Below, piece by piece: positions 25,700-48,605 of a stretch of DNA of 64,000 bases. The DNA is from Sphingobium lignivorans (GTDB taxonomy: Bacteria > Pseudomonadota > Alphaproteobacteria > Sphingomonadales > Sphingomonadaceae): the NCBI RefSeq assembly GCF_014203955.1, contig NZ_JACHKA010000001.1, positions 2,511,001 to 2,575,000 of the forward strand. Reading direction: 5' to 3'. The notes under the pieces were generated by a model that saw only the letters and a list, made by a program, of their open reading frames with translations, was not told the origin of the DNA and made no database searches. Position numbers and translations under genes: made by a program. How positions within the stretch are numbered: the stretch's first letter is position 1; the number at the start of each line of letters is the position of its first letter.

Positions 25700-25742
25700 T
25701 CACCGCCGATGGGAGCAAGCCATCGAACGAGGTCAGGGAAAC

Positions 25743-30694: not shown

Positions 30695-30778
30695 TTTCCG
30701 CACGGTTGACACAGAAGCGTCCCTATCGCAAATGCTCACAAAACATAATGAGAGTCTGATTCTTTTTTAGGAGGGGTT

Positions 30779-32155: not shown

Positions 32156-32187
32156 AACGAAACGATATAATAAAAGGGAGGACATAG

Positions 32188-35040
32188 GTGAGACCATTTT
32201 CCGCATTTCGTTCGCTTGCAACGACATCGTCCATCATCGCCATGGCGTTTTGCCATCACGCGCCGCTCATGGCCCAGCAGGATGATGCGGCGACCTCTTC
32301 GACGGCTGACAATGCGCCGTCCACGGAAGCCATCGTCGTCACCGGCAGTCGGCTGGCCCGGGGAGGCTTTCAGGCTCCCACGCCCGTCACCGTGCTCGGG
32401 CAGGAGGAAATCGCACGGCAGGGTTCAGCGAATATCGGCGACGCGCTGAATCAGCTGCCCTCGTTCCGCGCGCAGTCCACCCCCGCCACGGCCGGCGTGT
32501 CCCTCGCCAACGCGGGCGCACAACTGTCCGACCTTCGGGGCCTTGGCGCCAACCGCACGCTCGTGCTGGTCAATGGACGGCGCTTCATTTCGGGGACGGT
32601 CGCGGGCAATCCCCTCTCCCCTGCCGGCGCGGTCGACCTCAACATGATCCCGACCTCGCTGGTGGCCCGGACGGAGGTGGTGACGGGCGGCGCGTCGGCG
32701 GCCTACGGCTCGGATGCCGTGGCCGGCGTGGTCAACCTGATCCTCGATGACCGGCTGGAAGGCCTGCGCGGTTCGGCACAGCTCGGCATGGCCGAGCGCG
32801 GGGACAATGTGGAGCGCTTCTACTCCCTCGCCGCAGGAACCAGCTTCGCGGGCGGCGCCGGGCACATCGTCCTTGCCGGCGAATATGCCGGTTCCGATGG
32901 CATCGGCTCCTGTTATGATCGCCCGTTCTGCGCGGCGGAAGTCGCGCCCATCACCAACCCGACCCCCCAGGCGAATGGCCTGCCCCGGCAGGTCCTGCTT
33001 CCCAATGCGCGGCCCGCCACGGCCTCATGGGGCGGCCTCATCGTGTCCGGGCCATTGCGCGGCACCGAGTTCGCGGATGACGGGTCCACCTTCCAGCATG
33101 ATTATGGCGTCTATTATGGGGCAGGCCTGTTCCAGTCCGGCGGCAGCGCGGATCCGCGCAATGCCTATTTCGACAATTTCCCGCTCGTCGCGCCGGTCGA
33201 GCGTTATTCGCTCTACGGCCAGTTGCGCTACGATCTGGGGTCGGACCTCGAATTCAAGATGGATGCGTCCTACGGGCGCGTGACGGCGGAACTCGTCGGC
33301 GCGCAGACCCGGGATACCAACATCGTCATCCAGCGCGACAACCCCTTCCTGCCGGAGTCGGTGGTCGACCGCATGACCGCGCTCGGGCTGACGTCCTTCA
33401 CCTTCGGCCGCATCGGCCAGGATCTGGGGCCGATGGTCGGCAGGACGACGCGCGAGACGGCCCGGATCGCTGCCGGGCTGGAGGGCCGGATCGGCCAGGG
33501 CTGGTCATGGGACGTCTATTATCAATACGGCCAGACCGATTATGCGCAGACCGCCTCCAACAACCGCATCAACGACAATTTCCTTCGCGCGGTGGACGCC
33601 GTCGAGGCAAGCGATGGATCGATCGTCTGCCGCTCGACGCTCACCGACCCGACCAATCAGCTGGTCCAGGGCTGCGCGCCGCTGAACCTGTTCGGCCAGA
33701 ACAACTTCTCGGCGGCCGCAAAGGCCTATGCCTATGGAACGGCGCAGCAGAACACCAAGCTCACCCAGCATGTCGTGGCAGCCACGCTGCGCGGCGACCT
33801 TTTCGAAGGCTGGGCGGGCGCCATCCCGGTCGCGATCGGTGCCGAATACCGGGTAGAGGACGCCGAAGGATCAGCCGATCCGGTCTCCACGGCCCTGCGC
33901 TTCTACACCAGCCCGGGCTCCGGCATCACCGGCCCCGCCGTCGAAGTGAAGGAAGCCTTTGCCGAGGCCGCCCTGCCGCTCGCCCGTGACCTGCCCTTCA
34001 TGCAGAGCCTGGAACTGAACGGCGCCGTGCGCGTGACCGATTATTCCACGAGCGGCACGGTCACGACGTGGAAAGTCGGCGGCGTCTGGGACGTCTCCAG
34101 CCTCCTGCGCGTGCGCGCGACACGGTCGCGTGATATCCGCGCACCCAATTTCTTCGAGCTCTACAGCCCGCCCAGCACTTCCTTCCAGCGCATCGACGAC
34201 CCGCGCTTCGACGGTGCCAGCGAGCTGGTGCCCGTGCTGATCGGCGGGAACGAGCAGCTGAGGCCGGAAACGGCGGACACCTTCACCGCGGGCGTCGTGG
34301 TCTCGCCGATGCGTGGTCTTCGCATCGCGGCCGACTATTACGACATCAGGCTCGACGGCGCGATCTCCACGCTGGGCGGCGGGACGATCGTCGCGCGGTG
34401 CGAGCAGGGCGCGACCGAGTTCTGCGCACTGATCGATCGCGACCCCGTGACCCAGCAATTGCTGGGCGTGCGGAACATCAATCTCAACGTCAATTCCCTC
34501 AAGGTCCGGGGCGTTGACTTCGAGGCGAGCTACCGCACAGGGCTGGCGGACGGGACACTGGATATCCGCCTGCTCGGCACGCATGTGATCGATCTCATCA
34601 CGGTCGACAGCGGCGGGACCGTCGATCGCGCCGGCATGAATGGTGCCCCGACATCGCAGACATCAGGCGTGCCCAGCTGGACCGTGACGGGCAATATCGG
34701 GTGGTCCAAGGGGCCGTTCGCCGCACAGCTGCAGGGCCGCTATGTCTCGTCCGGCGTGTATAATGCGCTGCTCATCGGCCCCGGCGAGGAGGGATACGCC
34801 CCGACCGCGCCGAACAGCATCAGCGACAACAGGATCGGCGCGCGGGTCTATCTCAACCTGAACTCGCAGATCACCGTCTATGAATCGGGCAGGCAGAAGC
34901 TGGAGCTGTTCGGCGTCGCGAACAATCTGCTCGATACGATGCCGCCCAACAACACCCCGTCAAGCTCCGGCCCGGGCAATGCCGTGCTCTACGACGTGAT
35001 CGGCCGCGCCTACAAGATCGGCGTCCGCTTCGCTTACTGA
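32188..35040 (+). CDS. TonB-dependent receptor (sulfatase-linked)
   Basis: Outer-membrane active transporter of 950 aa. Signal peptide to about residue 29 (PLMAQ), then a TonB-box-like segment EAIVVTGSRL, plug domain (about 55-180, with NLRDLRG-type motif, TLVLVNGRRF and GSDAVAGVVNLI) and a 22-strand barrel ending with aromatic-terminated YKIGVRFAY. No STN domain. GTG start at 32188 with GGGAGG. It is co-transcribed with the sulfatase; the TetR regulator upstream probably controls both. Confidence 0.9.
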   Translation: MRPFSAFRSLATTSSIIAMAFCHHAPLMAQQDDAATSSTADNAPSTEAIVVTGSRLARGGFQAPTPVTVLGQEEIARQGSANIGDALNQLPSFRAQSTPATAGVSLANAGAQLSDLRGLGANRTLVLVNGRRFISGTVAGNPLSPAGAVDLNMIPTSLVARTEVVTGGASAAYGSDAVAGVVNLILDDRLEGLRGSAQLGMAERGDNVERFYSLAAGTSFAGGAGHIVLAGEYAGSDGIGSCYDRPFCAAEVAPITNPTPQANGLPRQVLLPNARPATASWGGLIVSGPLRGTEFADDGSTFQHDYGVYYGAGLFQSGGSADPRNAYFDNFPLVAPVERYSLYGQLRYDLGSDLEFKMDASYGRVTAELVGAQTRDTNIVIQRDNPFLPESVVDRMTALGLTSFTFGRIGQDLGPMVGRTTRETARIAAGLEGRIGQGWSWDVYYQYGQTDYAQTASNNRINDNFLRAVDAVEASDGSIVCRSTLTDPTNQLVQGCAPLNLFGQNNFSAAAKAYAYGTAQQNTKLTQHVVAATLRGDLFEGWAGAIPVAIGAEYRVEDAEGSADPVSTALRFYTSPGSGITGPAVEVKEAFAEAALPLARDLPFMQSLELNGAVRVTDYSTSGTVTTWKVGGVWDVSSLLRVRATRSRDIRAPNFFELYSPPSTSFQRIDDPRFDGASELVPVLIGGNEQLRPETADTFTAGVVVSPMRGLRIAADYYDIRLDGAISTLGGGTIVARCEQGATEFCALIDRDPVTQQLLGVRNINLNVNSLKVRGVDFEASYRTGLADGTLDIRLLGTHVIDLITVDSGGTVDRAGMNGAPTSQTSGVPSWTVTGNIGWSKGPFAAQLQGRYVSSGVYNALLIGPGEEGYAPTAPNSISDNRIGARVYLNLNSQITVYESGRQKLELFGVANNLLDTMPPNNTPSSSGPGNAVLYDVIGRAYKIGVRFAY

Positions 35041-35096: not shown

Positions 35097-38000
35097 TCAT
35101 AAAGCGATTTTCATGTCGAGCCGGACGAACCGTCCGAGCGGATCGTAGAATTGCGGGAAGGTGTTGCCGTTGCCGAGCACGCCGATCAGCGAGTCCGCCG
35201 CGACCAGAGGCGGGTCGCGGTCCAGCACATTCAGTACCGACAGGCTGAGCGTCAGACGGCTGGAGGCCGGGATGGCCAGGCTCAGGTCAAAATAGTCCTG
35301 GCGAGGGATCTTCCCGCGATCGGGCGAAACGGCCCCGGCGAGAAGCGGATCGGCACTGCTCCGGTCGACCCGGACGGCGCCCAGCCGACGCCAGGTCAGC
35401 ATCGTGGAGATTGCCCCGTCCGTCACCCAGGTCACCGATGCACGCTGGCGCCAGCGAGGCGTCGGCAGGCCGCACACCAGCCCATACAGCCCCACACAAT
35501 CGAAGCGGCCAAGTTCAGGCGCGCGCTCGGCCTGCTGACGGAAGACGTGGCTGGCGACGAGCGAGAGCCGTATCTCCCCACCCGGCCCGGCCGGCAGAGC
35601 CATAGTGTAGCGCAGACCGATATCCACACCGGAGGTCGACAGGGCGCCGATGTTGCGCAACGGATCGGCGACATAGCCGTCGTTGCCAAGGTCGAGCGAG
35701 CCGTTGATGGGCGATCGATGGACCAGCTGGCACAGGCTCGGGGCGCCGGTCTGTACGCAGTTGGCGAGGATAAGATTGGCCCCGATCTGGCCGATCGCGT
35801 TGCGTACGCGGATGTCGAAATAATCCAGGCTCAGGCTGAAGCGCGGCATCTCCGGCGGCGCGATGCTGACGCCGAGCGTGAGAGTGTCGGCTATCTCGGG
35901 CTGCAACGCCGGGTTCCCACCGGTGCGAATGTTGAACAGCCGGGCCGGATTGACGGCGATGTTGCCGAACTGGGCCGCCGTGACGCCGGATGCCGCGCAG
36001 GCCGCGAAGTCGTTGCCGTTCACGAGGCCGTTCGTCGCGGGGCCGGCGCAGGGATCCCAGCCACTGAACGTCGGATTGCGGGCTGGTGCAAACAGTTCGG
36101 CCACATTTGGCGCGCGCACGGCACGATTATAGCTTCCCCGCAAGCTCAGCCCGCGCCTTGCCCAGGTGAAACCGGCCTTGCGACTGTGTGACCAGCCCGA
36201 TGTCGAATAGCGGCTGATGCGCCCTCCGAATTCCAGCGTGATCCGTCCGACCGCATGGGCGACGCCGGTCAGCGGCAATTGCAATTCGCCGAAGGCTTCC
36301 ACCACATCGAACGCGCCATGCTGGTCGAGCCGGCGAGTCCCGCTCTGGCCCGAAAGGTCGCCGCTTTCGAAGGTCTCGTTGAAGTCGAGGGCGAGTATCT
36401 CACGACGATATTCACCGCCGATCACCACGCCGACCGCCTCGCCAGCCCATGGGCTGCGGATTCCCGCCGCGTCCAACCGACCGGTCAGAGCCACATTTGC
36501 CACCCACTCCTCAGTGCGCCCACGCATCGAGGCCGTCGCGGCAAGATAGTCCACGGCTTGCTGGTCGGCCGGGCCCACGCGCCAGACATCATAGGGGCGG
36601 CAGGCCAGGTCGATTCCGGTCAGGACGGCAGCGCAGACCGGACGCCCGACAGTCGGACTGGCAGGCCTGTCATCCAGCGTCACATCAAGGGCCCGCCCGA
36701 TGCGCGTCCGGGAGAGATCGCCGGTGAAGACTTCCCGAAGATCGACCCGGCCATATTGCACATGGCTTTCATACTGCCAGTCCGCGTTCGCTTCGCCCCG
36801 CAGCCCCACAATGGCGCGGAACGAGCGATGCCGGATATCGTCCACCCTCGGCCCGCCTTCGACATTGCGGCGCCCGATCGACACAAGACGCCGCGCGCCC
36901 GTCCCCGCGGCGATTCCACAAACGGCGTCCTGCTGGCTCGCGGAAAGCAGCGGATTGTCGCACGCGATGGGGAAGAGCTCACCGAATATGCCCGAGGGCG
37001 CAATGCGGGCCCGGGTGTGGTCATCCGCGATCATGAATTCCGCGAAGGGGACGAAAGCGGAGCTCAACTCGTAATGACCGATCAGCCCTGCCGCGATCCG
37101 GCGATCGGGCCGCTGGAGGTGATTGTCGGGCGCGTAATTGAAGGAATCGCGACTGGTCACATAAGGGCGGAATCCGTCAGAACCCGGATCGAGCGTGACC
37201 GCCGGCCCCGCCCCACCGTCCAGGATGAAACGGGCCGGGACCGTCGTGCTGGAGCCCAGGCAGCTCAGCGCATTGTCGGTCGCGCGGGCCCTGCTCAGCC
37301 CGCAGGCGCTGTAATCCCGCTGTCGCTGCAAGACCCCATCCACCTGCCGGAACGTGCTATAGGCCACGATATGCCCTCGGTCCCCCAGCCGCGAGCCCGC
37401 CTGAAGAGTCACTTCGCGGCTCCATCCGTCAGCGACCAGTCCCGCCGGGGACGCATAGCCCGCTCTCGTCACGATGGCTCGCGCCGGACTGTCATTGTCA
37501 TGGATATAGGCGCCGAGGCTCGCGGAGGCAGTCACGCCCTCGAAATGATCGTCGGTAATGAAATTGATTACGCCGGCGACGGCATCGGACCCGTAGATGC
37601 TCGATCCGCCGCCGGAAACCACCTCCATCCGCTTCACCACCGGCAGGGGAATGCTGTTGAGATCGGCCACCAGAGCCAGCGGATCGCCGGGCATCATGCG
37701 GCGTCCATTGATGAGCAGCAGCGTGCGCGCGCTGCCCAGGCCGCGCAAATTGACCGTGGCGGTGCCGGTCGCCTGACCGGAAAGGAAGGCGCCCTGCTCG
37801 GTGCCGGCGAATGGAAGGCTGGCGACCAGATCCTCGGCCCTGAGCATCTGCCCGGGATGCTGCGCAGCGAGATCCAGCGAGAAGACCGGGCCGACCGGCT
37901 CCTCGCTCGGGGGGCGGATGCGCGAGCCGGTGAGGATGATCGTTTCCTCAGCGGGCGCCGCACCCACCTGAGCGAGCGATGGCGGTGCCCGTGCAGGCCT

Positions 38001-38378
38001 CGTCGCGATGCTGGCCCGTCTCGCCCTCGTGATCACGAAAATGCCGCTGGGCCTGCGCGCAGCCCGCAATCCGGTTCCGGCCAGCATCCGGCGCAGAGCT
38101 TCGGCCGTGCCCAGCCGTCCCGCGATCGCGTGCGTGCGGAACCCAGCCACGTCTTCTTCCCGAAAAGCGATCTGCGCGCCGGTAAGGCGACCGAGGGTGC
38201 GGAGAGCGTCGCCGGCCGGACCCGAGGCGACCCGCACGACGTCATCGCGTACCTGGTCCCGCGCAGCAACCGGACTGGCCATCGACGCCGCGAGCGCCAG
38301 CACGAGACAGGACGAGCGGAAAAGCAGGACGTGAACCGAAAAGGCCCTCGACCGAACTCTGCAGATGAGACACGTCAA
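35097..38378 (-). CDS. TonB-dependent transducer receptor with STN domain (FecA-like)
   Basis: 1093 aa. Signal peptide to about residue 39; STN signalling domain about 45-120 (VASGPAGDALRTLGRLTGAQ...); plug with TIILTGSRI, NLRGLGSARTLLLINGRR and GSDAVAGVINFI; then a barrel ending FVRLDMKIAL. The STN domain contacts a FecR anti-sigma in the periplasm, so this receptor both imports and signals. It follows fecI and fecR in the same direction. Its barrel is clearly paralogous to the receptor at 42964. The start is TTG at 38378 with GGAG six bases upstream; a later GTG is possible. Confidence 0.9.
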   Translation of the reverse strand: MTCLICRVRSRAFSVHVLLFRSSCLVLALAASMASPVAARDQVRDDVVRVASGPAGDALRTLGRLTGAQIAFREEDVAGFRTHAIAGRLGTAEALRRMLAGTGLRAARRPSGIFVITRARRASIATRPARAPPSLAQVGAAPAEETIILTGSRIRPPSEEPVGPVFSLDLAAQHPGQMLRAEDLVASLPFAGTEQGAFLSGQATGTATVNLRGLGSARTLLLINGRRMMPGDPLALVADLNSIPLPVVKRMEVVSGGGSSIYGSDAVAGVINFITDDHFEGVTASASLGAYIHDNDSPARAIVTRAGYASPAGLVADGWSREVTLQAGSRLGDRGHIVAYSTFRQVDGVLQRQRDYSACGLSRARATDNALSCLGSSTTVPARFILDGGAGPAVTLDPGSDGFRPYVTSRDSFNYAPDNHLQRPDRRIAAGLIGHYELSSAFVPFAEFMIADDHTRARIAPSGIFGELFPIACDNPLLSASQQDAVCGIAAGTGARRLVSIGRRNVEGGPRVDDIRHRSFRAIVGLRGEANADWQYESHVQYGRVDLREVFTGDLSRTRIGRALDVTLDDRPASPTVGRPVCAAVLTGIDLACRPYDVWRVGPADQQAVDYLAATASMRGRTEEWVANVALTGRLDAAGIRSPWAGEAVGVVIGGEYRREILALDFNETFESGDLSGQSGTRRLDQHGAFDVVEAFGELQLPLTGVAHAVGRITLEFGGRISRYSTSGWSHSRKAGFTWARRGLSLRGSYNRAVRAPNVAELFAPARNPTFSGWDPCAGPATNGLVNGNDFAACAASGVTAAQFGNIAVNPARLFNIRTGGNPALQPEIADTLTLGVSIAPPEMPRFSLSLDYFDIRVRNAIGQIGANLILANCVQTGAPSLCQLVHRSPINGSLDLGNDGYVADPLRNIGALSTSGVDIGLRYTMALPAGPGGEIRLSLVASHVFRQQAERAPELGRFDCVGLYGLVCGLPTPRWRQRASVTWVTDGAISTMLTWRRLGAVRVDRSSADPLLAGAVSPDRGKIPRQDYFDLSLAIPASSRLTLSLSVLNVLDRDPPLVAADSLIGVLGNGNTFPQFYDPLGRFVRLDMKIAL

Positions 38379-38401
38379 CTGCTTCTCCGCATGTGCCCGG
38401 C

Positions 38402-39379
38402 TCAGCGTCTCCCGGGTTCGAAGCGGATCACCTTGCCATCGGTCTCTGCCCGTACATCGAGCAGAGACGTCACGGCGTCCACGAAGCCGTCGATCTCCCC
38501 GGATCGGAATACGCCGCTCACCTTGAAGGATGCGACGGCAGGGTCAACCTCGATCTGCCTCGTCGCCATGCGATTGACGCGCTGGACGGCGATGGCCAGC
38601 GTTTCGTCGACAAGGACCACCTCGCCCGTGACCCAGGCCCTGCTGCGATCGTCCAGCAGGCGCTCCATGAGCGCCGGCCGGCCATCGCCATGGATCACGA
38701 GCCGCGTCCCCGGCTTCAGCGCCTGCTCGAAGCGATGTGCCGGCGACCGCACGATGACGCCCCCTTCATACAGTTCGACCTGGATCTGGTCGTCCAGACG
38801 CTCGACCGAGAACAATGTCCCCGTTGCGGTGACGCTGATCCCGCTCGCCGCGACCACGAAAGGCCTCGCCTTGTCCGATCGGACGGCGAAGAGAGCCCGC
38901 CCCCCCGCCAGTTCGAGCGCGCGTGACTGGCTCGTATCGCGCATCAGGACCCTGCTGTCGCCATCGAGCGTGACGACAGATCCGTCGGGTAACGTGGTCA
39001 CCCTGCGCTCTCCGGCCGCCGTGCGCAGATCGACAGGCGCGGTCGGGGGCACCCCGGAAGGGATCATGACCAGCGCCAGGGAGGCCGCCAGGGCCATCGC
39101 GGCAACGGCGCCACCGCCAAGGAACCATCTCCGGTCGATGCGCCGCACCTCGGGTGCCGGCTCTGCCGGTGCAGGCTCTGCCGGTGCCATCGCCTCCGGG
39201 CGCTCCTGCAGCGCATCCCAGGTTTCGCTCACGCGCGTGAACGCTTCCAGATTGGCCGGCGCTGCGGCCAGCCATCGGTCAAAGGCGGCGCCTTCTTCGG
39301 CCGTCAATCGTCCCTGCAACAGCAGGGCATACCACTGCGCGGCCGCATCGATGGGGTCGTGGGGGGCATGCATCGTCAT
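38402..39379 (-). CDS. FecR-family anti-sigma/sigma-regulator
   Basis: 325 aa. N-terminal cytoplasmic DUF4880-like part (about 10-60, AAQWYALLLQGRLTAEEGAAFDRWL), one membrane helix about 84-106 (GGGAVAAMALAASLALVMIP), a periplasmic FecR domain about 115-215 (GERRVTTLPDGSVVTLDGDS, VTATGTLFSV), and a C-terminal STN-like portion. It relays ligand occupancy of the transducer receptor to the sigma factor. Start ATG 39379 overlaps the sigma stop by four bases; the receptor gene starts 23 bases downstream. Confidence 0.92.
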   Translation of the reverse strand: MTMHAPHDPIDAAAQWYALLLQGRLTAEEGAAFDRWLAAAPANLEAFTRVSETWDALQERPEAMAPAEPAPAEPAPEVRRIDRRWFLGGGAVAAMALAASLALVMIPSGVPPTAPVDLRTAAGERRVTTLPDGSVVTLDGDSRVLMRDTSQSRALELAGGRALFAVRSDKARPFVVAASGISVTATGTLFSVERLDDQIQVELYEGGVIVRSPAHRFEQALKPGTRLVIHGDGRPALMERLLDDRSRAWVTGEVVLVDETLAIAVQRVNRMATRQIEVDPAVASFKVSGVFRSGEIDGFVDAVTSLLDVRAETDGKVIRFEPGRR

Positions 39380-39912
39380 TTCGGATCCCCCAGCCGACGC
39401 ACCAGATGGGCGATGGCCTGCGCCAGTCCCTTCTCCACCGTGCTCAGCGATACACCGAGCCGATCGGCGATCTCGCGCTGGGAGACATTCTCGAACCGGG
39501 CGAGCATGAAAATCGTGCGCGTCCGTTCGCTCAGTTCCTGCAGGGCCTGGGTGACGATGGCCAGTCGCTCCCGACCAATCAACACGCGCTCAGGATCGAT
39601 CACGTCGATGTCCGATGAAACAGCGGCAATATCCTTGCTGTGGCGCATCCGGACCGCCAGCCTGCGCGAGCGATCCGCCAGCAGATTGGCCGCGACACCG
39701 AACAGATAGGCGTCGATGCGATCGGCTCCCTCCCCGTGCCGGTCCGTCCGGATCAAGACTTCCTGCGCCATGTCCTCGGCATCGGCATAGGCGACGCCGC
39801 GACGCAAGAAATAAGTGATGAGGGGCAACCGAAAACGGCCGTTGAGCGCGGTCATGGTGGCGGCCGGCACATCCGTGCCGCCACATAGCCTCAACCGGTC
39901 AGCAGCGGCCAT
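39376..39912 (-). CDS. FecI-like ECF sigma factor
   Basis: 178 aa. Region 2 (about 25-90; YFLRRGVAYADAEDMAQEVLIR, AYLFGVAANLLAD) and region 4 (about 120-172; LSERTRTIFMLARFENVSQREIADRLGVSLSTVEKGL). No anti-sigma anchor or extra domain. ATG 39912 with GGGGAG; Met20 (39855) is an alternative. It lies 112 bases after paralogue D and directly upstream of fecR, so it may be read both from the operon promoter and from its own. Expected targets are this operon and the TonB receptor promoters. Confidence 0.92.
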   Translation of the reverse strand: MAAADRLRLCGGTDVPAATMTALNGRFRLPLITYFLRRGVAYADAEDMAQEVLIRTDRHGEGADRIDAYLFGVAANLLADRSRRLAVRMRHSKDIAAVSSDIDVIDPERVLIGRERLAIVTQALQELSERTRTIFMLARFENVSQREIADRLGVSLSTVEKGLAQAIAHLVRRLGDPK

Positions 39913-40024
39913 GGCCAGCGCTCCCCGTCGGCCGGACGCAGGCGAACGGGATGCCGGCGCTCTGCGCCGCGCGATCTCTGCTTTCCGTCCGCCTGTCCGT
40001 CATGTCGTTCCGATACCGTATCCG

Positions 40025-40975
40025 TCAGCGGCCCTGCCAGCCATCCGGCTGGCCATAAGGCAAGCCGACTTCGACCGCTTCGATCGCCCGGATCTTGTTG
40101 TCACGGATATTGAAGGCTTCCGCGATCAGCACATGGCTCGGTATCCGTGCATTGGCCGGCATCGCAACCTTGCCGTGCGTGGGCGAGTCGACTTCCTTGA
40201 TCGTCCCCGGATGGACGAACATGAACATGCCCACCACATTGCCCCGCTCCTCGTCGACCAGCACATAACGGCGCGGCTCGACGCGCTGGATGTAGCGCCA
40301 AAGTCCGGTCTTCATGTTCTGGTCGCACGTCATGTTGAACGGGTTGAAGGCCGGATCCGGAAAGCTCGGCGACTTGTGCTCCGGATTGTTCGTGGTCTGG
40401 ATGCCGTTCTCGACCCTGTTGCAATCGCTGGTGAAGGCCACGGGGGCACCACTGGTCAATCCGTTGAAGTAGCTGTCCGCTGCCTTCACCAGCGCCTCAC
40501 GGGACGGCCGCTGCCCCTTGGGGAGCGTTTCGTCGAAAGCGGGCATCTTGGCGCGCGCTTCCAGTTTCGCGACGTGTTCGGCATTGCGATAAATCAGCAT
40601 CTCGGCTTCGGCGACCTTGCGATCGACCACCTTGAGGCGCAGCGAGACGAGCACCGGGCGATCCGCCTCACGCGCCGTCCCGAACCAGACCACCTGGCCG
40701 GCCGGAACGTCCGCGAAATAACGGCTGTAGCTGCCCTTGTTCTGGTACGTCGCCCAGAAGCCGTCCCCCAGCGTCAGCGGCACGCTGTTTTCGGTATAGT
40801 GAAATCCGGCCGCGACCGGAACCTTCGCGGGATCCTTCGCGTCCATGGCCGCCATGAAGCCGGCAGCGACACCCTCCAGGCACGCACGGTCGCAGCTCGC
40901 CTGAGCCAGGGCCGGTGATGCCGCGATGGCGGCAAAGCCCAGCAGCGCAGTGGCGATCGTCTTCCTCAAACCCAT
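40025..40975 (-). CDS. Secreted DUF8021-like protein, paralogue D
   Basis: 316 aa with a signal peptide (ATALLGFAAIAASPALAQA). The mature protein begins CDRACLEG. It shows the family's repeated motif twice: YTENS...GDGFW in the first half and VENGIQTTNN in the second, then YVLVDEERG. This suggests two NTF2/SnoaL-like units in tandem (from memory the family resembles DUF8021). Enzymatic function is unknown. Fourth and last of the secreted paralogues before the sigma factor. ATG 40975 with GGGAG. Confidence 0.75.
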   Translation of the reverse strand: MGLRKTIATALLGFAAIAASPALAQASCDRACLEGVAAGFMAAMDAKDPAKVPVAAGFHYTENSVPLTLGDGFWATYQNKGSYSRYFADVPAGQVVWFGTAREADRPVLVSLRLKVVDRKVAEAEMLIYRNAEHVAKLEARAKMPAFDETLPKGQRPSREALVKAADSYFNGLTSGAPVAFTSDCNRVENGIQTTNNPEHKSPSFPDPAFNPFNMTCDQNMKTGLWRYIQRVEPRRYVLVDEERGNVVGMFMFVHPGTIKEVDSPTHGKVAMPANARIPSHVLIAEAFNIRDNKIRAIEAVEVGLPYGQPDGWQGR

Positions 40976-40998
40976 TCTCGATACTCCCGCGACAATCA

Positions 40999-41970
40999 TC
41001 AATCCCATCCGCTTCCGCGGCCATAAGCATAGCTCGTGCCGATCGCCTCGATCCGGCGAACGCCCGTCCTGTCGACCTTGAAAGCTTCGAAAATGCCGAC
41101 GCTGCTGGGACGGAGAAGATTGGGGGGCACCGCGACCGGGCCGCCCTTCGTGTCGAGCGTCTTCTTGTCCCCGTCATGCTCGAACAGCGCCATGCCCACC
41201 ACGATGCCGCGTTCCTCGTCGACGATCGTGTAGCGACGATACTGGATACGGCTGACGAAATCGAAGAAGCGACTGTCGATGTTGTCCTTGCAGTTGAGGC
41301 TGTAAGGCTGGAACTCGGACTCGAAGCTGCGCGACCGATAGGTGGGATTGCTGGTGGTCTGGAGGCCGTTCTCAAGACGGAAGCAGTCGCTGGCAAAGGT
41401 GATACCGGCAGAACTGTCCTGTTCGATCGCGTCGAAATAGCGATCCGCCACCTGGATCAGACTATTGCGCGAGAGGCGCTGCGCCGCCGGAACCGGCTGG
41501 CTCCAGAGAGGGTCCACGCCCTTGGCATTGAGCGCCGCCGCGTGGGGTGCATTACGCACGACGATGATCTCCGACTCGCGGATCGCCTTGTTCACGACCT
41601 TGAGGCGGACGGTCAGCAGCCCGTCGATGCCATTCTCCTGCATCGTCGCAAAGGCGTTTATCTCGCCGCGTGCCGCGTCCGAGAAATTGACGCGATAAGC
41701 GCCGAGATCGCTCCCGAGCGACCAGAATCCTTTGTTCAGCGGAAGCTCGACGCCGTTCTCCGTGTGACGGAAGTCGCGCGCCAGCGGCAGGCTCGAGGCA
41801 TCATGTGCGCGCATCGCCTTGAGATAGGCGTCCATCACGCTCTCGAGGCAGGCCCGCTCGCAATCCATTTCGCCCGGCTTGGGCGGCGCGCCATGCGGGG
41901 CGGGAGATGCAACCGAGGCACCCGGCGGCGCCACCGCAAGCAGAGCGGCGACAAGGGACAGACGGATCAT
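40999..41970 (-). CDS. Secreted DUF8021-like protein, paralogue C
   Basis: 323 aa. Signal peptide MIRLSLVAALLAVAPPGASV, then CERACLES (the Asp of the motif is Glu here), HTENGVEL...GFW, LENGLQTTSN and YTIVDEERG. The GDG of the first half is NKG, a divergence from A, B and D. The ATG overlaps the stop of paralogue B by four bases (ATGA), and paralogue D starts 23 bases after its stop. Function unknown. Confidence 0.75.
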   Translation of the reverse strand: MIRLSLVAALLAVAPPGASVASPAPHGAPPKPGEMDCERACLESVMDAYLKAMRAHDASSLPLARDFRHTENGVELPLNKGFWSLGSDLGAYRVNFSDAARGEINAFATMQENGIDGLLTVRLKVVNKAIRESEIIVVRNAPHAAALNAKGVDPLWSQPVPAAQRLSRNSLIQVADRYFDAIEQDSSAGITFASDCFRLENGLQTTSNPTYRSRSFESEFQPYSLNCKDNIDSRFFDFVSRIQYRRYTIVDEERGIVVGMALFEHDGDKKTLDTKGGPVAVPPNLLRPSSVGIFEAFKVDRTGVRRIEAIGTSYAYGRGSGWD

Positions 41971-42905
41971 GGTTGTTTCTCCACCCAGCCTGAAGGCATC
42001 TTGTAGGGCACGGCGAGATGCGCGGCCTCGATCTGACGGATCTTCCCGTCCTCGATCTTGAAGAGTTCGCCCATCATCAGCGTGAAGGGCCGCGTGAACG
42101 GGTAAGGCACTTTCATCACTTTGCCGTCGGCGAGCGTGACCTGCGGGATGTTGCCGCGGTGATCCCAGAACATGATCGAATAGACGAGCCCCCGCTCCTC
42201 ATCGACGATGGGGAAACGACGCTCCCGAACGTCCGTGACGAACTTTGAGAAGCCGCTGTCGAACTGTGCCTGACAGCCCACGGCATGCAGCGTCCCCACA
42301 TAGCGCTCGGCCTTGCTGCTGGTGGTCTGGGTGCCATTCTCGAACCGAATGCAGTCCGGATGGAACGGCGTCAGCTTGCCGGTCGCTTGCACGATGCCCT
42401 CGAAATAGGAGTCCGCGATCCGGATCAGCTCGGCGCGCGACGACCGCTTTCCCGGGGGGACGACCGCGTGAAAGGCCGGCTTGTCGTAGGACGCTTCGAG
42501 CGGGCGCTTGTCCTCCCGCGCAACGATCGCTTCCATCTCGCTGATCTTGCGATCAATCACCTTGAGACGGAGATTGAGCAGGGCACGCGTGCCGTTTTCC
42601 TCGACCTCGGCGAACAGGGCCGTCTCGCCGGCCTTCACGTCAGAAAAGTGCAGCCGGTAAGGGCCAAGGCCCGTGACGCTGGCCCACATGCCATCGCCGA
42701 GCGCCATCGTCTGGCCATTCTCGGTGTAGCGCGCGCCGGCAGAGAGCGGCAAGCCCGCCGCGTCCTTGGCGGCCAGGGCTGCCAGATAGGCATTGCCCAG
42801 CCCTTCCAGACAGGCACGATCGCAGTCTGCGCCTGCCTCGGCCTTCCCTGCCTGCGCCATCAGCAGCAAGGGTGCTGCGAGCAGAGCCAATCTCCGTTTC
42901 TTCAT
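41967..42905 (-). CDS. Secreted DUF8021-like protein, paralogue B
   Basis: 312 aa from ATG 42905 (GAGGAA upstream). Signal peptide KKRRLALLAAPLLLMAQAG, then CDRACLEG, YTENGQTMALGDGMW, FENGTQTT, VGCQAQF and FPIVDEERG. Starts 58 bases after the stop of the receptor at 42964. Of the four it looks closest to the consensus. Function unknown; periplasmic or extracellular location is inferred from the signal. Confidence 0.75.
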   Translation of the reverse strand: MKKRRLALLAAPLLLMAQAGKAEAGADCDRACLEGLGNAYLAALAAKDAAGLPLSAGARYTENGQTMALGDGMWASVTGLGPYRLHFSDVKAGETALFAEVEENGTRALLNLRLKVIDRKISEMEAIVAREDKRPLEASYDKPAFHAVVPPGKRSSRAELIRIADSYFEGIVQATGKLTPFHPDCIRFENGTQTTSSKAERYVGTLHAVGCQAQFDSGFSKFVTDVRERRFPIVDEERGLVYSIMFWDHRGNIPQVTLADGKVMKVPYPFTRPFTLMMGELFKIEDGKIRQIEAAHLAVPYKMPSGWVEKQP

Positions 42906-42963
42906 CGATTTCTGGTTCCTCGAAAAAGGCGGCGGGATCGCGAACGACCCCGCCCCGTCTCGT

Positions 42964-45936
42964 TCAGAATGTGACCGTGGCGCCGACATAGATGTAGCGG
43001 CCGAGAGGGTCATAGACCTGCGGGTAGGTGTTGCCGTTGCCGAGAACGCCGGTGAGCGAGCTCGTGCTGATCAGCGGCGGTGCCTTGTCGAACAGGTTGT
43101 TCACGCCGGCGCGGAGATTGAACTGGCCGGCCACGTTGGTCGAATAGGCCAGGTCGAAATAATGGCGATCGCCCACGCGGCGGTCGACTTCCGCGACGCG
43201 TCCGGTCAGCAGGGGATCGCTGCTGGCGCGATCGACGGTGACGGCACCGATATAGCGCCAGTTGAGCGAGAAATCGCCGACCCAGGGCGTCGCCCAGACC
43301 AGCCGCGCGCGGTGCCGCCATTCCGGCGAGGGTACGCCGCAGGTCAGGCCGAAATAGCCCTTGCACTCGTAGGTGCCGAGACCCGGCAGCGGCTCGGTCT
43401 TGAGCGAACCCAGCCATGTGCCGTTGAACGACATGGAGAGGGACCCAACATTGCCGAGGCCGACCTCGTCGAGCGCAAGGCGGTAATCGACGGAAAGATC
43501 GATGCCGCTGGTCGATTTCGAACCCGTGTTGCGACGGATGTCGAGCACATAGCCGTCATTGCCGAGATAGATGGAACCGTTGACCGGCGACCGCAGGACG
43601 AGGTCGCAGTAGAAGGGGTCCGCCGTCTGCACGCACTGGCGCAGGATCAGATTGCCGCCGATCACGTCGATCGTGTCCTCGACGCGGATGTTGAAATAGT
43701 CGGCGGTGATCGAGAGCCCCGGAAGGAATGTCGGCGTCGCGACGAAGCCCGCCGTCCAGGTATAGGCCGTCTCCGGCCTCAGGCCGGGGTTGCCGCCCGT
43801 ACGACTGTTGTACTGGCCCGCCGGATTGGCGATGATCGTGCCGAACTGCGCTTGCGTGACGCCGGAAGCCGCGCACTGCGCGAAGGTGTAGCCGTTCACG
43901 CGGCCATCGACGGCCGGGCCCGCGCAGGGGTCCGTGCCGGTGAACCCGGGGGCGCCAAGCGGCGAGAAGAGCTCGGAGACGTTCGGCGCGCGAACCGCCT
44001 TGTTGTAGCCGGCACGGAATCGGATGTCGCGGCTGGGTGCCCAGTCACCACCGATCTTGAAGGTGTGCGTCGAGCCTGCCGTGCTGTATTCGGAGAACCG
44101 GTAGCCCATGTTCAGCGACAGGGAGTGGAACAGCGGGCGCTCCTCCACGATCGGCACATTGGCTTCGCCGAACAGCTCGAAGACGTCGAACTTGCCGTCC
44201 ATGTTGACGCGGCGGCTGCCATTCTGGCCCGCCAGCTCGCCGTTACGGAAGGTCTCGTCGAAGCGACTGGAGAGGGACTCCTCGCGATATTCCGCGCCAA
44301 GCGCCACGCTGACGCCATTCTCGGCCCAGGGAAGCTGCACGCCATATTTGCCCAGGTCGCCGGAGAACGAAAGGCCGGCCACCTTCTCCTTCGTATCGCC
44401 GGTCCAGAAGGCCGCGATCTGGAGGTAGTTCACGGCCTGCGGCGTCACGCCGTTCACGGACCAGACGTTGTAGGGGACGCAGTTCGGGTCCACACCGTTC
44501 AGAACCGCCGCGCAGACCGGGCTGCCGAACGTCGCGCTGCCCGGGCGCGTGTCGGTGACGACATTCAGCGCACGGCCGATCCGCGAGAGGGCGAAGTCAC
44601 GCTGGAACATCTCGGTGAGCGTCGTGAGGCCGAACTGCCCGTACACGTCGTAGCTCCAGGCATCGCCCAGGTCGCCCCGCGCACCGGCGACGATGCGGTA
44701 GGACTGGTGGCGAAGATCGTCGAGCCGGCCGCCGCCTTCCACGTTGCGCTTGCCGATCGAGACTCCCCTCGTCGCGCTCGTCCCGCTGGCGGCGCCGCAG
44801 ATGGCGCTCATCTGGCTCGCGGAGAGCAACGGATTATTGCAGTTGATCTGGAAGATCTGGCCGAAGATGCCGGAAGGCGCGAGCTGGGCGACCGTGCGGT
44901 CGTCCATGTACATCACGTCGAGATAGGGGACGAAAGCCTTGCTCACTTCATAGCTTGCGAAGGCGCCCATGGTGTAGCGCCGGTCGGGGCGCTGGAAGTA
45001 GTTGATGGGCGTGTAATTGTAGGAGTCCCGCAGCACATTGTAGGGACGGAAGCTGTTGCCTTCGCCAGCCGGGTCCAACGTGACCTCCGCACCCGAACCA
45101 CTGTTCAGGACGAACCGCGCGGGACTGGTGGTGCTCGATCCGAGGCAGGCATGCGTGCTGCCGGTCGGGCCCGTGGCGCCAAGCGCGCAGGCGACATAGT
45201 CGCGATTGCCCTGGAACGACGCGTCCAGCTTGCGATAGCCGCCATAGACCGTGATGTTGCCGCGGCCACCTTCCAGGTTGATGCCGATCTTGGCCGACAG
45301 ATCCAGGCCATGGCCGTCTGTCACGCTGCCCGTCGGCACGTCGTAGCCGGCCGCCCGGGCGAGCGGCGCGACGATGCTGTCGCGATTATTGTGCTGATAG
45401 AAGCTGTGCTGGGCGGAGATCTGCACGCCCTCGAACCTGCGATCCATGATGAAGTTCACCACGCCCGCCACGGCATCGGAACCATAGACCGCCGAGGCGC
45501 CGCCCGTCACCACGTCGACGCGGCGGATCATGTTGCCGGGGATGAAGTTCAGGTCCGGCACCAGCGCCATCGGGCTGCCAGGCATCAGGCGCTTGCCGTC
45601 GATCAGGACCAGCGTTCGCGTCGACCCGAGATTACGGAGATTGGCGTTGGCGGTGCCGGTTGCCTGACCGCCGATGAAGGCGCCCTGCCCGGCCGTGAAC
45701 GCCGGAAGCGTGTTGACCACGTCCTCGATGCGCATCGCGCCCGTCAGCTTGATGTCTTCCTCGCCCACTGTCGTCACGGGGCTCAGGGCGGAGAGACCGG
45801 GCTGACGAATGCGCGATCCGGTAACGACGATGGAGCTGGTGCTCGCAGCGCCATCCTCGTCCTGCGCCCAGGCGGGTCCGCCCGGGATCGCGACGGTAGC
45901 CGACGCCAGCATGAGAGAAAGAACACTCTTCTTCAT
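42964..45936 (-). CDS. TonB-dependent receptor without STN domain
   Basis: 990 aa. Signal peptide KKSVLSLMLASATVAIPGGPAWA, TonB-box-like SIVVTGSRIR, plug (about 35-170; NLGSTRTLVLIDGKR, GSDAVAGVVNFIM) and barrel ending YIYVGATVTF. It aligns along the barrel with the STN receptor at 35097; for example both have TGGNP, DPCAGPA and ASGVT segments in the same order. ATG 45936 with AGGGGG. It sits between paralogues A and B, so the secreted proteins and the receptor probably handle the same ligand. Confidence 0.92.
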   Translation of the reverse strand: MKKSVLSLMLASATVAIPGGPAWAQDEDGAASTSSIVVTGSRIRQPGLSALSPVTTVGEEDIKLTGAMRIEDVVNTLPAFTAGQGAFIGGQATGTANANLRNLGSTRTLVLIDGKRLMPGSPMALVPDLNFIPGNMIRRVDVVTGGASAVYGSDAVAGVVNFIMDRRFEGVQISAQHSFYQHNNRDSIVAPLARAAGYDVPTGSVTDGHGLDLSAKIGINLEGGRGNITVYGGYRKLDASFQGNRDYVACALGATGPTGSTHACLGSSTTSPARFVLNSGSGAEVTLDPAGEGNSFRPYNVLRDSYNYTPINYFQRPDRRYTMGAFASYEVSKAFVPYLDVMYMDDRTVAQLAPSGIFGQIFQINCNNPLLSASQMSAICGAASGTSATRGVSIGKRNVEGGGRLDDLRHQSYRIVAGARGDLGDAWSYDVYGQFGLTTLTEMFQRDFALSRIGRALNVVTDTRPGSATFGSPVCAAVLNGVDPNCVPYNVWSVNGVTPQAVNYLQIAAFWTGDTKEKVAGLSFSGDLGKYGVQLPWAENGVSVALGAEYREESLSSRFDETFRNGELAGQNGSRRVNMDGKFDVFELFGEANVPIVEERPLFHSLSLNMGYRFSEYSTAGSTHTFKIGGDWAPSRDIRFRAGYNKAVRAPNVSELFSPLGAPGFTGTDPCAGPAVDGRVNGYTFAQCAASGVTQAQFGTIIANPAGQYNSRTGGNPGLRPETAYTWTAGFVATPTFLPGLSITADYFNIRVEDTIDVIGGNLILRQCVQTADPFYCDLVLRSPVNGSIYLGNDGYVLDIRRNTGSKSTSGIDLSVDYRLALDEVGLGNVGSLSMSFNGTWLGSLKTEPLPGLGTYECKGYFGLTCGVPSPEWRHRARLVWATPWVGDFSLNWRYIGAVTVDRASSDPLLTGRVAEVDRRVGDRHYFDLAYSTNVAGQFNLRAGVNNLFDKAPPLISTSSLTGVLGNGNTYPQVYDPLGRYIYVGATVTF

Positions 45937-45980
45937 GATAAACCCCCTGTTTGTTTCCTTGATGACGGCGTGCGCCGCAC

Positions 45981-47081
45981 TCACTGGCGAGGCGGCGGCA
46001 ATTTGCTGAAGGTTCTGGGCAGGTCGGCGTCGCGCGCGCCGGGCCAGCCCGAAGGCATTCCGTAGGGCGCTGCCGTGAGGACCGCCTCGATCGTCCGGAT
46101 CTTGCCGCTCTCGAGCTTGAAGGCCTCGGCGATCTCCCAGGTCATCGGCGTGTCGGGACCAAAGTCCTTCAGCATCGTTCCATCCGCCAGCGGGAAGTTG
46201 CGGATCGTACCGCTGTGGTCGAAGAAGCCGAACGCGAAGACGGCGCCGCGCTCGACGTCCACGACCGGAAAGCGGCGGTCCCGGACCCGGTCGACGAAGC
46301 GAAAAAAGCCTGTCTTGAACTGCGCGGTGCAACTCAACGCCGAGAGGCGCGCGATCGGGTTCGCGGCGGCAGCGGCCTCGCCCTGCTGGCCCGCGAGGCG
46401 GCGATTGATGTCGGCATAGTCGATATCGGGATTGTTCGTGGTCTGAACACCGTTCTCGTGCCGCAGACAGTCATCCGTGAAAGGGTAGTCGGCGTGGCCG
46501 TCATTGAGCTCGATCGCCGCGAAATAATTGTTCGCACCCCGGACGAGTTGTTCGCGCGTCTCGCGGCGCTCGGCCGGAATGATTTCACTCCAGGAAGGAT
46601 GCGGCGCACCGCGCTCCTCCAGCATGGCCGGGCCGCGACTGATGTTGCCCGAGCCGCTCGACCGCGAGATGATCGTCTCGATCTCGGTGAACTTGCCATC
46701 CTTGACCTGAAGCCGCCCCGCATAGAGCGCGAGCTTCTTGGCCTCCTTCATCACGGCGACGAAGCCGATCTGCTGCGTATCGATATCGATGAAGATGTTG
46801 CGATATCGCCCGGCTGCTTCGACCGTGCCCCAGAAACCGTCCCCCGGAGACAGGGTCTGGCCGTTTTCGGTCAGCCGGACATCTGCCGCGAGAGGCAAGT
46901 TCGCGGTCTTCTTCCCGCCGACCGCATCGACGAACTGGTCCGCCATTCCCTGAAGACAGGACCGATCGCAGTCCGACGCGGCGTGGACCGGAGCCGCCAC
47001 AAAGGCGGCCGCCAGCGCGGCACCAAGAGTGATAACATGTGCGCGCCGATAACGGAGCGCTGCCGCGCTGCGGATGTTCAT
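45981..47081 (-). CDS. Secreted DUF8021-like protein, paralogue A
   Basis: 366 aa, the longest and most divergent of the four, with a C-terminal extension of about 17 residues and an Ala/Gly-rich insert (QQGEAAAAANPIA) before the conserved Cys. Signal peptide (VITLGAALAAAFVAAPVHAA), then CDRSCLQG, LTENGQTLSPGDGFW, HENGVQTTNN and FPVVDVERG. ATG 47081 with GGGAGG. First gene of the eight-gene minus-strand unit; its upstream 173 bases must hold the operon promoter. Confidence 0.75.
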   Translation of the reverse strand: MNIRSAAALRYRRAHVITLGAALAAAFVAAPVHAASDCDRSCLQGMADQFVDAVGGKKTANLPLAADVRLTENGQTLSPGDGFWGTVEAAGRYRNIFIDIDTQQIGFVAVMKEAKKLALYAGRLQVKDGKFTEIETIISRSSGSGNISRGPAMLEERGAPHPSWSEIIPAERRETREQLVRGANNYFAAIELNDGHADYPFTDDCLRHENGVQTTNNPDIDYADINRRLAGQQGEAAAAANPIARLSALSCTAQFKTGFFRFVDRVRDRRFPVVDVERGAVFAFGFFDHSGTIRNFPLADGTMLKDFGPDTPMTWEIAEAFKLESGKIRTIEAVLTAAPYGMPSGWPGARDADLPRTFSKLPPPRQ

Positions 47082-47254
47082 AGTCGCCTCCCGGTCCGCC
47101 CCTTGTCGGGCGATCACGGAGAAGACGCGCGACCGTCACAAACCCGTAAGATTTTTTATCCGGCCGGCTCGGGCCTCCGGGCGGCATGCCGCATAGTCCG
47201 CTTCTGCACCCGCCGAACGACCCGCCAGGGAAGGGAAGGAAAGGACTCGCCTGC

Positions 47255-47740
47255 CTACGGCATGCGGGAAGCATCCGCGCCGGCCGCGTCCGCTTCCCGG
47301 AGCCGCCACCGCGGGTCGTCAGCGCAGCGTGCCTCCAGGCCCCGGCCCAGCTCCGCGAGGCTCACCGCGCCCAGCCGCTCGACCATCAACGCCTCCGCAT
47401 CGCGAAGCACATCTTCTACCGCGGCGTTGACGAGTTGCTCGACTGCACAGGCCGGGTTGGAATGCTCGTTCCCGATCGCGAAAAGCCGGGGGCCGCCGAC
47501 TGCGCGATAGACGTCCAGGAGCGACACGCGTTCCAGGTCGCAGGCAATGGCCCAGCCGCCGCCATGCCCCTTCTCGGAGCGGACATAGCCCGCATCGCGC
47601 AGTCCCGCCAATGTGCGCCGGACGACGACCGGGTTGGTCCCCAGCATCATGCCGATCGCTTCCGATTTCATGGGGCCGTCATGCCGCGCCATGTGGAGCA
47701 GCACGTGCAGCATGCGGGAAAGGCGGCTGTCGTTTCGCAT
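47255..47740 (-). CDS. Rrf2 family transcriptional regulator
   Basis: 161 aa. Winged HTH about residues 1-80: RLSRMLHVLLHMARHDG, SEAIGMMLGTNPVVVRRTLAGLRDAGYV and KGHGGGWAIA, typical of Rrf2. The only Cys residues (ACDLE, PACAVE, ARCADD) do not form the three-Cys Fe-S pattern of IscR/NsrR, so it is probably a non-cluster, YwnA-like member. Start 47740; the ribosome site is weak. Divergent from a methyltransferase gene with a 27-base inverted repeat between them. Confidence 0.87.
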   Translation of the reverse strand: MRNDSRLSRMLHVLLHMARHDGPMKSEAIGMMLGTNPVVVRRTLAGLRDAGYVRSEKGHGGGWAIACDLERVSLLDVYRAVGGPRLFAIGNEHSNPACAVEQLVNAAVEDVLRDAEALMVERLGAVSLAELGRGLEARCADDPRWRLREADAAGADASRMP

Positions 47741-47783
47741 GGGGCGATCTTCGCATGTCTCCGCCCATTGGCAAGGGCACGCC

Positions 47784-47810
47784 ATCATGATACTTATGAA
47801 GTTACATGAT
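47784..47810. promoter_or_regulatory. Rrf2 operator candidate
   Basis: Two 12-base arms, ATCATGATACTT and AAGTTACATGAT, separated by ATG and matching at 10 of 12 positions as inverted copies. It is in the 85-base gap between the Rrf2 gene and the divergent methyltransferase gene, where autoregulation would be expected. Confidence 0.55.
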
Positions 47811-47825
47811 TCGCGAGGGAAAGAC

Positions 47826-48605
47826 ATGCGGGAATTCGAGAATCCGGACCATTGGGACAATGCGGCGCGCCATTATCAGCAGACCGCCCATCCTTTCACG
47901 GCGCTCTTTGCGGAGGACGCGCTGGCGCGGCTGCCCCTGACGCCCGGGAGCCGCGTGCTCGATGTCGCGGCCGGCACCGGCGCGCTCGCTCTCGCCGCCG
48001 CGCGCAGCGGTGCGCAGGTGCTGGCGACCGATTTCTCCCCCGGCATGGTGGAGTGCATTGCCGCCGCCGGCCTGCCCAATGTCGAGGCGCGCGTGATGGA
48101 CGGGCAGGCGCTGGACCTGCCGGACGCGCAGTTCGATGCCGTCTTTTCGATCTTCGGCGTCATCATGTTTCCCGACTGGCGCAAGGGCCTTGCGGAAATG
48201 GCCCGGGTGACGCGGCCCGGCGGGCATGGCGTGGTCGCCACATGGCAGTCCCGGGGCGCGGCGACGTTCCTCCTGCTGGGCGAGATCCGGCAGAAGCTGT
48301 TCCCGGAGCGGCCGGGCATGGCCATGCCCGAAGCCGTCCAGGCGCTCAGCGATCCGGACGATTTCGCCCGCGCCCTCGTCGCTGCCGGCTATCGCGATCC
48401 CTGTATCGAGGCTGTGACGCATAATTATCGGCTGGACGTGGCGGCGCTCGATGCCCCCGATACGCTGTTCGGCATGTCGCCCGACTGGACCAGTCTGGAC
48501 GATGTCGAGAAGGCCGCGGTGGTCGCCGAGGTGCGGGATCGGGCGGCTGATCGCCCAATCCTGCCCATCCCCTCGACCGCCCTTATCGGCGTGGCGGAAC
48601 GGTGA
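47826..48605 (+). CDS. Class I SAM-dependent methyltransferase
   Basis: 259 aa. Motif I VLDVAAGTGALAL, acidic loop ATDFSPGM, motif post-I MDGQALDLPDAQFDAVFSIFG and motif III LAEMARVTRPGGHG (Methyltransf_11/25 type). The substrate is unknown; the family includes UbiE- and arsenite-like methyltransferases, but no Cys trio for arsenic is present. ATG 47826 follows GAGGGA. Probably controlled by the divergent Rrf2 regulator. Confidence 0.87.
   Translation: MREFENPDHWDNAARHYQQTAHPFTALFAEDALARLPLTPGSRVLDVAAGTGALALAAARSGAQVLATDFSPGMVECIAAAGLPNVEARVMDGQALDLPDAQFDAVFSIFGVIMFPDWRKGLAEMARVTRPGGHGVVATWQSRGAATFLLLGEIRQKLFPERPGMAMPEAVQALSDPDDFARALVAAGYRDPCIEAVTHNYRLDVAALDAPDTLFGMSPDWTSLDDVEKAAVVAEVRDRAADRPILPIPSTALIGVAER

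Follow-up and report, generated by a model that had tools for sequence, protein, structure and literature searches.

We analysed a window of 64,000 nucleotides from Sphingobium lignivorans (contig NZ_JACHKA010000001.1, positions 2,511,001 to 2,575,000; the genome is a single contig of 4,207,152 bases), in which eight open reading frames, all on the minus strand, run from position 47081 to 35097. In order, they encode the exported protein A, TonB-dependent receptor 1, the exported proteins B, C and D, a FecI-like extracytoplasmic function (ECF) sigma factor, a FecR-like regulator, and a second TonB-dependent receptor with an STN domain. We tentatively propose, as the best explanation we have and one that falls a little short of probable, that A to D are exported, cofactor-free acid-base enzymes acting in the periplasm on aromatic oligomers imported by the receptors, under FecIR control. 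The data show the gene content, export-type N-termini, conserved acid and amide residues, the linkage of exported family copies to receptors, and the family-wide linkage to dioxygenases; we infer the enzyme activity, the ligand class, the periplasmic site and the control of A to D by the sigma factor. The tandem fold of these proteins is a prediction, modelled for D and extended to A, B and C by homology.

In the proposed mechanism, the STN receptor would sense a ligand at the outer membrane and, via FecR, free the FecI-like sigma factor, which would then turn up some or all of the module's genes. The ligand, for which an aromatic oligomer of plant or lignin origin is the most likely candidate, would enter the periplasm through the receptors, and A to D would process it there by acid-base chemistry that needs no cofactor. 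The candidate reactions are those of other NTF2-fold enzymes (dehydration, isomerisation or the loss of formaldehyde), and A, B, C and D would each probably have their own substrate or stereoisomer. The class of ligand is suggested by the neighbours of family relatives, by DDVA import and receptor induction in Sphingobium sp. SYK-6, and by ferulate/syringate-type genes at 20233-26219 of the window.

A predicted tandem NTF2-like fold

B, C and D share 41%, 34% and 38% identity with A, respectively, and all four proteins begin with signal-peptide-like N-termini (as judged by a hydrophobicity rule, not SignalP). None of the four matched a Pfam model at E ≤0.01 or an NCBIfam model at E ≤1, and D had no Pfam match even at E ≤5. 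When 28 diverse family members were compared with Pfam at E ≤0.1, single members matched four unrelated models, none of which was shared. The sole sequence hint of an NTF2 fold in domain 2 came from one fused family copy, with a weak match to SnoaL_2 (E 0.15). Sequence relatives were also sought in the PDB at E ≤1 and 10, and none was convincing.

An AlphaFold model of mature D, built with 28 aligned rows, reached a pLDDT of 95.1 and a pTM of 0.92. Its domain 1 resembles NTF2-like proteins, including ketosteroid isomerase (KSI; Z 12.2, 105 aligned, 2.2 Å; Foldseek, VIA-align). Domain 2, modelled alone (pLDDT 94.4), resembles SalBIII (Z 11.5, 120 aligned, rmsd 2.9), KSI (Z 11.4, 113-114 aligned) and Lsd19 (Z 11.3 and 11.2). 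A profile comparison also pairs the two halves of D (hhalign probability 96, E 2e-9) and brings a Glu-Asn pair and an Asp into register. On this model, D is an internal duplication of an NTF2-like domain, two in tandem, as its relatives are by homology, and A to D each probably hold two enzyme-like pockets in a row. Over 135 copies (D numbering), the conserved positions are E73 (0.97), N74 (0.93), W85 (0.95) and D100 (0.97) in the first half and E200 (0.96), N201 (0.96) and D252 (1.00) in the second; the lowest value in either the exported or the unexported form of the family (see below) is 0.89. An earlier suggestion, that the secreted proteins bind or modify the ligand, fits the predicted fold, these conserved residues, and the preference of exported copies for TonB receptors as neighbours.

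The preliminary description of the window had called A to D four secreted paralogues of an uncharacterised family. The export-like N-termini and the lack of a Pfam or NCBIfam model bear this out, but the four do not appear to be a recent local amplification. Recent tandem amplification was weakly rejected by the approximately unbiased (AU) test (p 0.026 for A to D as one clade; 59 rows, after removal of near-copies, of the SYK-6 rows for four loci, and of 11 rows that had long branches or were odd). A FastTree phylogeny of 135 rows set A, B and C+D apart, with C and D pairing at a support of 87; long branches make both results soft. The sequence pattern of fungal DUF8021 proteins may resemble that of the A-D family. 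No description of the operon or family was found among the literature matches listed, which is weak evidence of absence, as the search covered titles and abstract openings and most subscription papers lay outside it. As far as we have seen, the combination of an exported tandem-NTF2 family with adjacent FecIR genes has apparently not been described before; FecIR systems and TonB-linked catabolic loci are each known.

Exported and unexported forms keep different neighbours

Ten family copies are encoded in this genome (11 profile matches, with one copy split). A narrower profile matched in 3 of 41 genomes drawn, including its own, and a broader one in 31 of 396 genomes of the order, from 9 of 84 genera, at E ≤1e-10. 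Family members also occur in metagenome-assembled genomes labelled as Gammaproteobacteria, several acidobacterial groups, and KSB1. From 161 domain rows collected around family genes we obtained 129 unique copies in the order's genomes, and 115 were kept as full length after dropping 14 that ended before profile position 300 or scored <100. Only identical sequences were removed, and related genomes, including this strain and SYK-6, were counted separately.

By a hydrophobic-stretch rule, 71 of the full-length copies are exported and 44 are unexported. An N-terminal Cys-x3-Cys motif is found in 67/71 exported versus 4/44 unexported copies, and in each of these last four the long open frame also contains a first family copy. 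A TonB receptor gene lies within 1.5 kb of 19/71 exported versus 1/44 unexported copies (Fisher P 6e-4). For comparison, given the 73 receptors of this genome, a 1-kb gene placed at random would have one within that distance about 11% of the time. At the same distance, genes of the major facilitator superfamily (MFS) accompany 4/71 exported versus 13/44 unexported copies, short-chain dehydrogenase/reductase (SDR) genes 6/71 versus 18/44, pyrroloquinoline quinone (PQQ)-dehydrogenase-like genes 8/71 versus 20/44, and aldehyde dehydrogenase genes 4/71 versus 8/44 (P 0.056). The neighbour profiles were built from few seeds, and all of these counts are therefore lower bounds. SnoaL_4 neighbours were considered as a further marker of form and made no distinction (9/71 versus 4/44 within 1.5 kb, P 0.76). 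Thus the family has two forms: an exported one with Cys-x3-Cys, commoner beside TonB receptors, and an unexported one, commoner beside MFS, SDR and PQQ-type genes.

Several copies are parts of larger proteins. At locus L011 (11808-13604), a family copy is fused to a strictosidine-synthase/SMP-30-like part (weak Pfam matches), and next come genes for three SnoaL_4-like proteins and one resembling a PQQ dehydrogenase; this order recurs in L110, L118, L153 and L163, where the arrangement has a second family copy in open frames of 609-668 aa. Two family units per long open frame, equivalent to four NTF2-like domains, are seen at L042 (9998-12007), L088, L100, L103, L134 and L141.

Family clusters lie near stilbene-dioxygenase-type genes more often than expected

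SYK-6 and its relatives serve as models of how bacteria use lignin. We counted RPE65-family genes, the lignostilbene-dioxygenase type, around the 88 family clusters of the 33 family-bearing genomes, with expectations from uniform random placement. Such a gene lies within 3 kb of 16/88 clusters, against 1.2 expected, and within 10 kb of 21/88, against 2.9 expected. The 16 linked clusters come from 14 genomes of five genera, and with genome G000 left out the count is 15/83. As a control, 0/109 FecR genes had an RPE65 gene within 3 or 10 kb (0.8 and 2.2 expected). FecR genes therefore show no such enrichment, though they control only weakly for catabolic islands.

The eight RPE65 genes of SYK-6 fall in the same order as its eight published LSD locus tags, and LSD8 (SLG_27300) and LSD5 (SLG_27970) would thereby adjoin unexported family copies. 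The dioxygenase genes at L013:12774-14306 and L014:13767-15245, each near a family copy, have LSD8 and LSD5, respectively, as their SYK-6 counterparts by order. The accessible part of one study reports that LSD5 prefers lignostilbene over DCA-S and that LSD8 is insoluble, and it assigns neither to a pathway (PMC8191317). At L014 (9076-10637), L123 and L126, a SnoaL_4 gene overlaps an unexported family copy, SDR and MFS genes come next, and the opposite strand carries an RPE65 gene about 2-3 kb away. The arrangement looks like a compact undescribed pathway.

Related chemistry and uptake are on record. LdpA and PcfL, which have an NTF2 fold, make stilbenes by formaldehyde loss (PMC12997858, PMC11323797). 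SYK-6 imports the dimer DDVA through the TonB receptor DdvT, and 17 of its 74 receptor genes are induced by lignin-derived compounds (PMC6874591). A review of dimer pathways covers NTF2-fold lyases and stilbene dioxygenases, and the words periplasm and secreted are absent from its main text (PMC12997858). A wider and more doubtful proposal is that the catabolism of lignin oligomers in sphingomonads begins with an extracytoplasmic stage, in which periplasmic tandem-NTF2 enzymes would carry out dehydration, isomerisation or deformylation of oligomers brought in by receptors, unexported sisters would feed cytoplasmic stilbene dioxygenases, and SYK-6-type strains would add a FecIR switch. If true, the FecIR-switched periplasmic stage would be the lignin counterpart of polysaccharide-utilisation loci.

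Signalling genes and organisation of the run

The features of the run and its spacers, all on the minus strand, are as follows:
45981..47081 (-): A, exported family protein, 366 aa, with N-terminal Cys-x3-Cys
42964..45936 (-): TonB-dependent receptor 1, 990 aa, plug and barrel, without an STN match (Pfam)
42931..42954 (-): GC-rich hairpin followed by T5, between receptor 1 and B; possible terminator or attenuator
41967..42905 (-): B, exported family protein, start taken as the ATG at 42905
40999..41970 (-): C, exported family protein, 323 aa
40025..41008 (-): D, exported family protein, 327 aa, modelled in its mature form
39376..39912 (-): FecI-like ECF sigma factor, 178 aa (Pfam)
38402..39379 (-): FecR-like sigma regulator, DUF4880 and FecR, 325 aa (Pfam)
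35097..38378 (-): TonB-dependent transducer, STN, plug and barrel; TTG start at 38378 uncertain (Pfam)
47082..47254 (-): 173-base spacer upstream of A, possible promoter region

The eight open reading frames lie as the preliminary description had placed them, in that order, on one strand and with short gaps. There are 44 bases between A and receptor 1, 58 between receptor 1 and B (55 if B starts at the preceding codon, 42908), 112 between D and the sigma gene, and 23 between FecR and the STN receptor; B and C overlap by four bases, and C and D either overlap by 10 bases, with the first ATG of D, or are 23 bases apart, with the ATG at 40975.

The sigma factor matches Sigma70_r4_2 above the Pfam cut-off (5.8e-15), with region 2 just short (23.4 bits against a cut-off of 24), and its gene adjoins and overlaps that of the FecR protein by four bases, the arrangement of FecIR cell-surface signalling. 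The FecR protein matches FecR (1.3e-20) and DUF4880 (9.2e-11), and the transducer's STN domain scores 29.8 bits against a cut-off of 28.4. Thus the component parts of the FecI-FecR-transducer system that had been named in the preliminary description are present by Pfam. Receptor 1 and the transducer are related to each other, with 49% identity across 970 residues.

FecIR genes are not a general partner of the family, an association that we considered and rejected: a FecR gene lies within 10 kb of only 3/88 family clusters, two in this genome and one in SYK-6. The second cluster in this genome, L012, consists of sigma, FecR, a family copy, a receptor and another family copy. Its receptor is 26-28% identical to the window receptors in the main aligned parts, and its STN match (20.6 bits, E 3.9e-4) falls short of the Pfam cut-off. 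SYK-6 has five other FecR genes, all more than 10 kb from any family copy. With random placement of the 7 FecR genes of this genome, at least 2 of its 5 family clusters fall within 3 kb of one with P 0.0018. As the window cluster was our starting point, the fairer figure concerns the second case only: for a further cluster among the remaining 4 to adjoin any of the remaining 6 FecR genes, P is 0.047. Co-occurrence of the family with FecIR outside this strain had been named beforehand as a test; it was found in SYK-6 and in none of the 31 other family-bearing genomes.

On one side of the run, 30023-35040 encodes a regulator resembling TetR, a sulfatase-like protein whose N-terminus looks like a signal, and another TonB receptor, the third of the region, in convergent orientation to the FecIR genes. 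On the other side, beyond the 173-base spacer upstream of A, the same strand encodes an Rrf2-like regulator at 47255-47860, near a divergent methyltransferase gene. The genes at 20233-26219, 9-15 kb from the operon, resemble a ferulate/syringate catabolism cluster, with likely counterparts of a desA/ligM-type demethylase, ferA, ferB and a MarR regulator.

Comparison with SYK-6 and the question of a single transcript

Among 22 loci scanned, a near-identical locus was found only in SYK-6 (protein A 98% identical, the next 48%); genome G195, listed under the same species, was treated as SYK-6. The window and SYK-6 are 96.9% identical over 21,098 bases compared, and all eight genes are intact in SYK-6 and align over their full length. 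The dN/dS values are 0.21 for A, 0.057 for receptor 1, 0.085 for B, 0.098 for C, 0.066 for D, 0.045 for sigma, 0.050 for FecR and 0.158 for the STN receptor. Five spacers were compared, each extended by 30 bases on either side. The 233 bases compared upstream of A differ at 1 position; conservation is lowest for the D-sigma spacer, at 90.7% identity in a region of about 97%.

The hairpin between receptor 1 and B has 10 pairs, 8 of them GC, a 4-base loop, and TTTTT within three bases, and is identical in SYK-6. The fold of the spacer has an energy of -26.5 kcal/mol (z -2.3), and 6/200 shuffles were equally stable. Terminator-like sites in the region are no commoner than in shuffled sequence (5 found, 6.3 expected), and we therefore take the hairpin as a warning and not as proof. 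A sigma-70 promoter scan, which does not cover ECF promoters, found no promoter. A single transcript for all eight genes is thus uncertain, owing to the hairpin with its T5. The earlier expectation that the whole set is switched on together keeps its FecIR parts, but one co-regulated transcript is unproven, given the hairpin and the poorly conserved D-sigma spacer.

Alternative explanations

Several observations weigh against periplasmic enzymes under FecIR control, and the strongest are that the run lacks catabolic genes and that the relatives of its receptor are uninformative. By the open reading frame list and Pfam, no dioxygenase, dehydrogenase or inner-membrane transporter is encoded within the eight genes, and the lignin link is drawn from relatives elsewhere, not from genes of the run. 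Receptor 1 was considered as a clue to the ligand and set aside: its relatives occur in 82 other genomes of 396 (E ≤1e-150, scoring two candidates in each genome; the listed rows are 37-50% identical), of which only 2 have the family, and the eight relatives inspected by eye adjoin peptidase-like or TPR-like genes. RPE65 genes within 3 kb accompany both forms, 8/71 exported and 12/44 unexported (P 0.04), and clustering of catabolic genes in islands could inflate this linkage under uniform placement. In addition, the hairpin with T5 before B may split the run, and FecR lies beside the family in 2/33 family-bearing genomes, both of one species, and in 0/31 others.

A to D could instead be periplasmic or surface binding proteins that, in the manner of SusD capture and hand-over, offer a hydrophobic aromatic ligand to the receptors with no catalysis. 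We consider this rather unlikely. NTF2-like folds also serve as plain binders, and designed binders were among the fold matches; the exported copies do favour receptor neighbours, and three homologues (L036, L042 and L051) have lipoprotein-like signals by eye. However, the unexported copies keep the same acid and amide residues, and a role as receptor partner leaves unexplained these copies, which are commoner with MFS, SDR and PQQ-type genes and rarely found with receptors. It is about equally improbable that the sigma, FecR and STN receptor genes are a separate unit that controls itself or unrelated genes, with A-receptor 1 and B-C-D under other control. Such a division could fall at the hairpin with T5 or at the 112-base D-sigma spacer, whose identity to SYK-6 is below that of the region, and 31/33 family-bearing genomes have no FecR within 10 kb of the family. 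Against it, this genome has another FecIR-receptor set, unrelated to the first, that also lies next to family genes, for which the chance is the P of 0.047 given above, and receptor 1 is similar to the STN receptor.

Finally, like most FecIR systems, the run could serve the uptake of iron-siderophores or haem, with the exported proteins as accessories; we regard this as very unlikely. The FecI-FecR-STN architecture is best known from iron carriers (PMC9249621). However, no iron gene was recognised by Pfam within the eight-gene run, and the SYK-6 receptors of the siderophore/haem clade, in the available part of PMC7376174, are SLG_04340, 04380, 10860, 17010 and FiuA (SLG_34550). The locus lies near SLG_25110-25220, as interpolated between the eight LSD tags, and the receptors of the run are probably none of those.

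Comparison with known systems

The run resembles FecI-FecR-FecA cell-surface signalling systems in having an ECF sigma factor, a FecR protein with DUF4880 and an STN-bearing TonB receptor, in that order, with sigma and FecR genes overlapping. It differs from them in adding the STN-less, 49%-identical receptor and four exported proteins, and in having no recognised iron gene. The receptor pair and FecIR could also be surface signalling for a carbon source rather than iron.

LdpA and PcfL, the formaldehyde lyases of the NTF2 superfamily, share with the A-D family an NTF2-like fold, and family clusters lie near RPE65-type dioxygenases beyond expectation. In contrast, the A-D family is predicted to be tandem two-domain, 71/115 of its full-length copies are exported, and it has no SnoaL_4 match: neither D nor the L014 family copy matched that model at E ≤5, nor did any of the 28 members at E ≤0.1, whereas the neighbouring single-domain proteins L014:9076-9762 and L011:13601-14320 matched it at 2.8e-30 and 1.1e-26. 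If LdpA and PcfL themselves match SnoaL_4, as we assume, the family would fall outside their group by sequence; LdpA is unnamed among the fold and sequence matches listed for the family. Lsd19, the lasalocid epoxide hydrolase (PDB 3rga and 4rzm, 281-283 residues), is a two-domain NTF2-fold enzyme and among the tied best matches of domain 2, but it belongs to a polyketide pathway and is 15% identical over the aligned part.

The CUT (carbohydrate utilization containing TonB-dependent transporter) loci of Xanthomonas and Caulobacter combine a TonB receptor, degradative enzymes, an inner-membrane transporter and a regulator (PMC1790865). Here, too, TonB receptors stand with exported putative enzymes and a regulator, but the run has no inner-membrane transporter gene, NTF2-like proteins of putative enzyme role replace the carbohydrate enzymes, and the regulator is of FecIR type. 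The family, of which one genome has 10 copies, fits no Pfam or NCBIfam model; with its ties to receptors and dioxygenases, it points to unassigned steps of lignin pathways.

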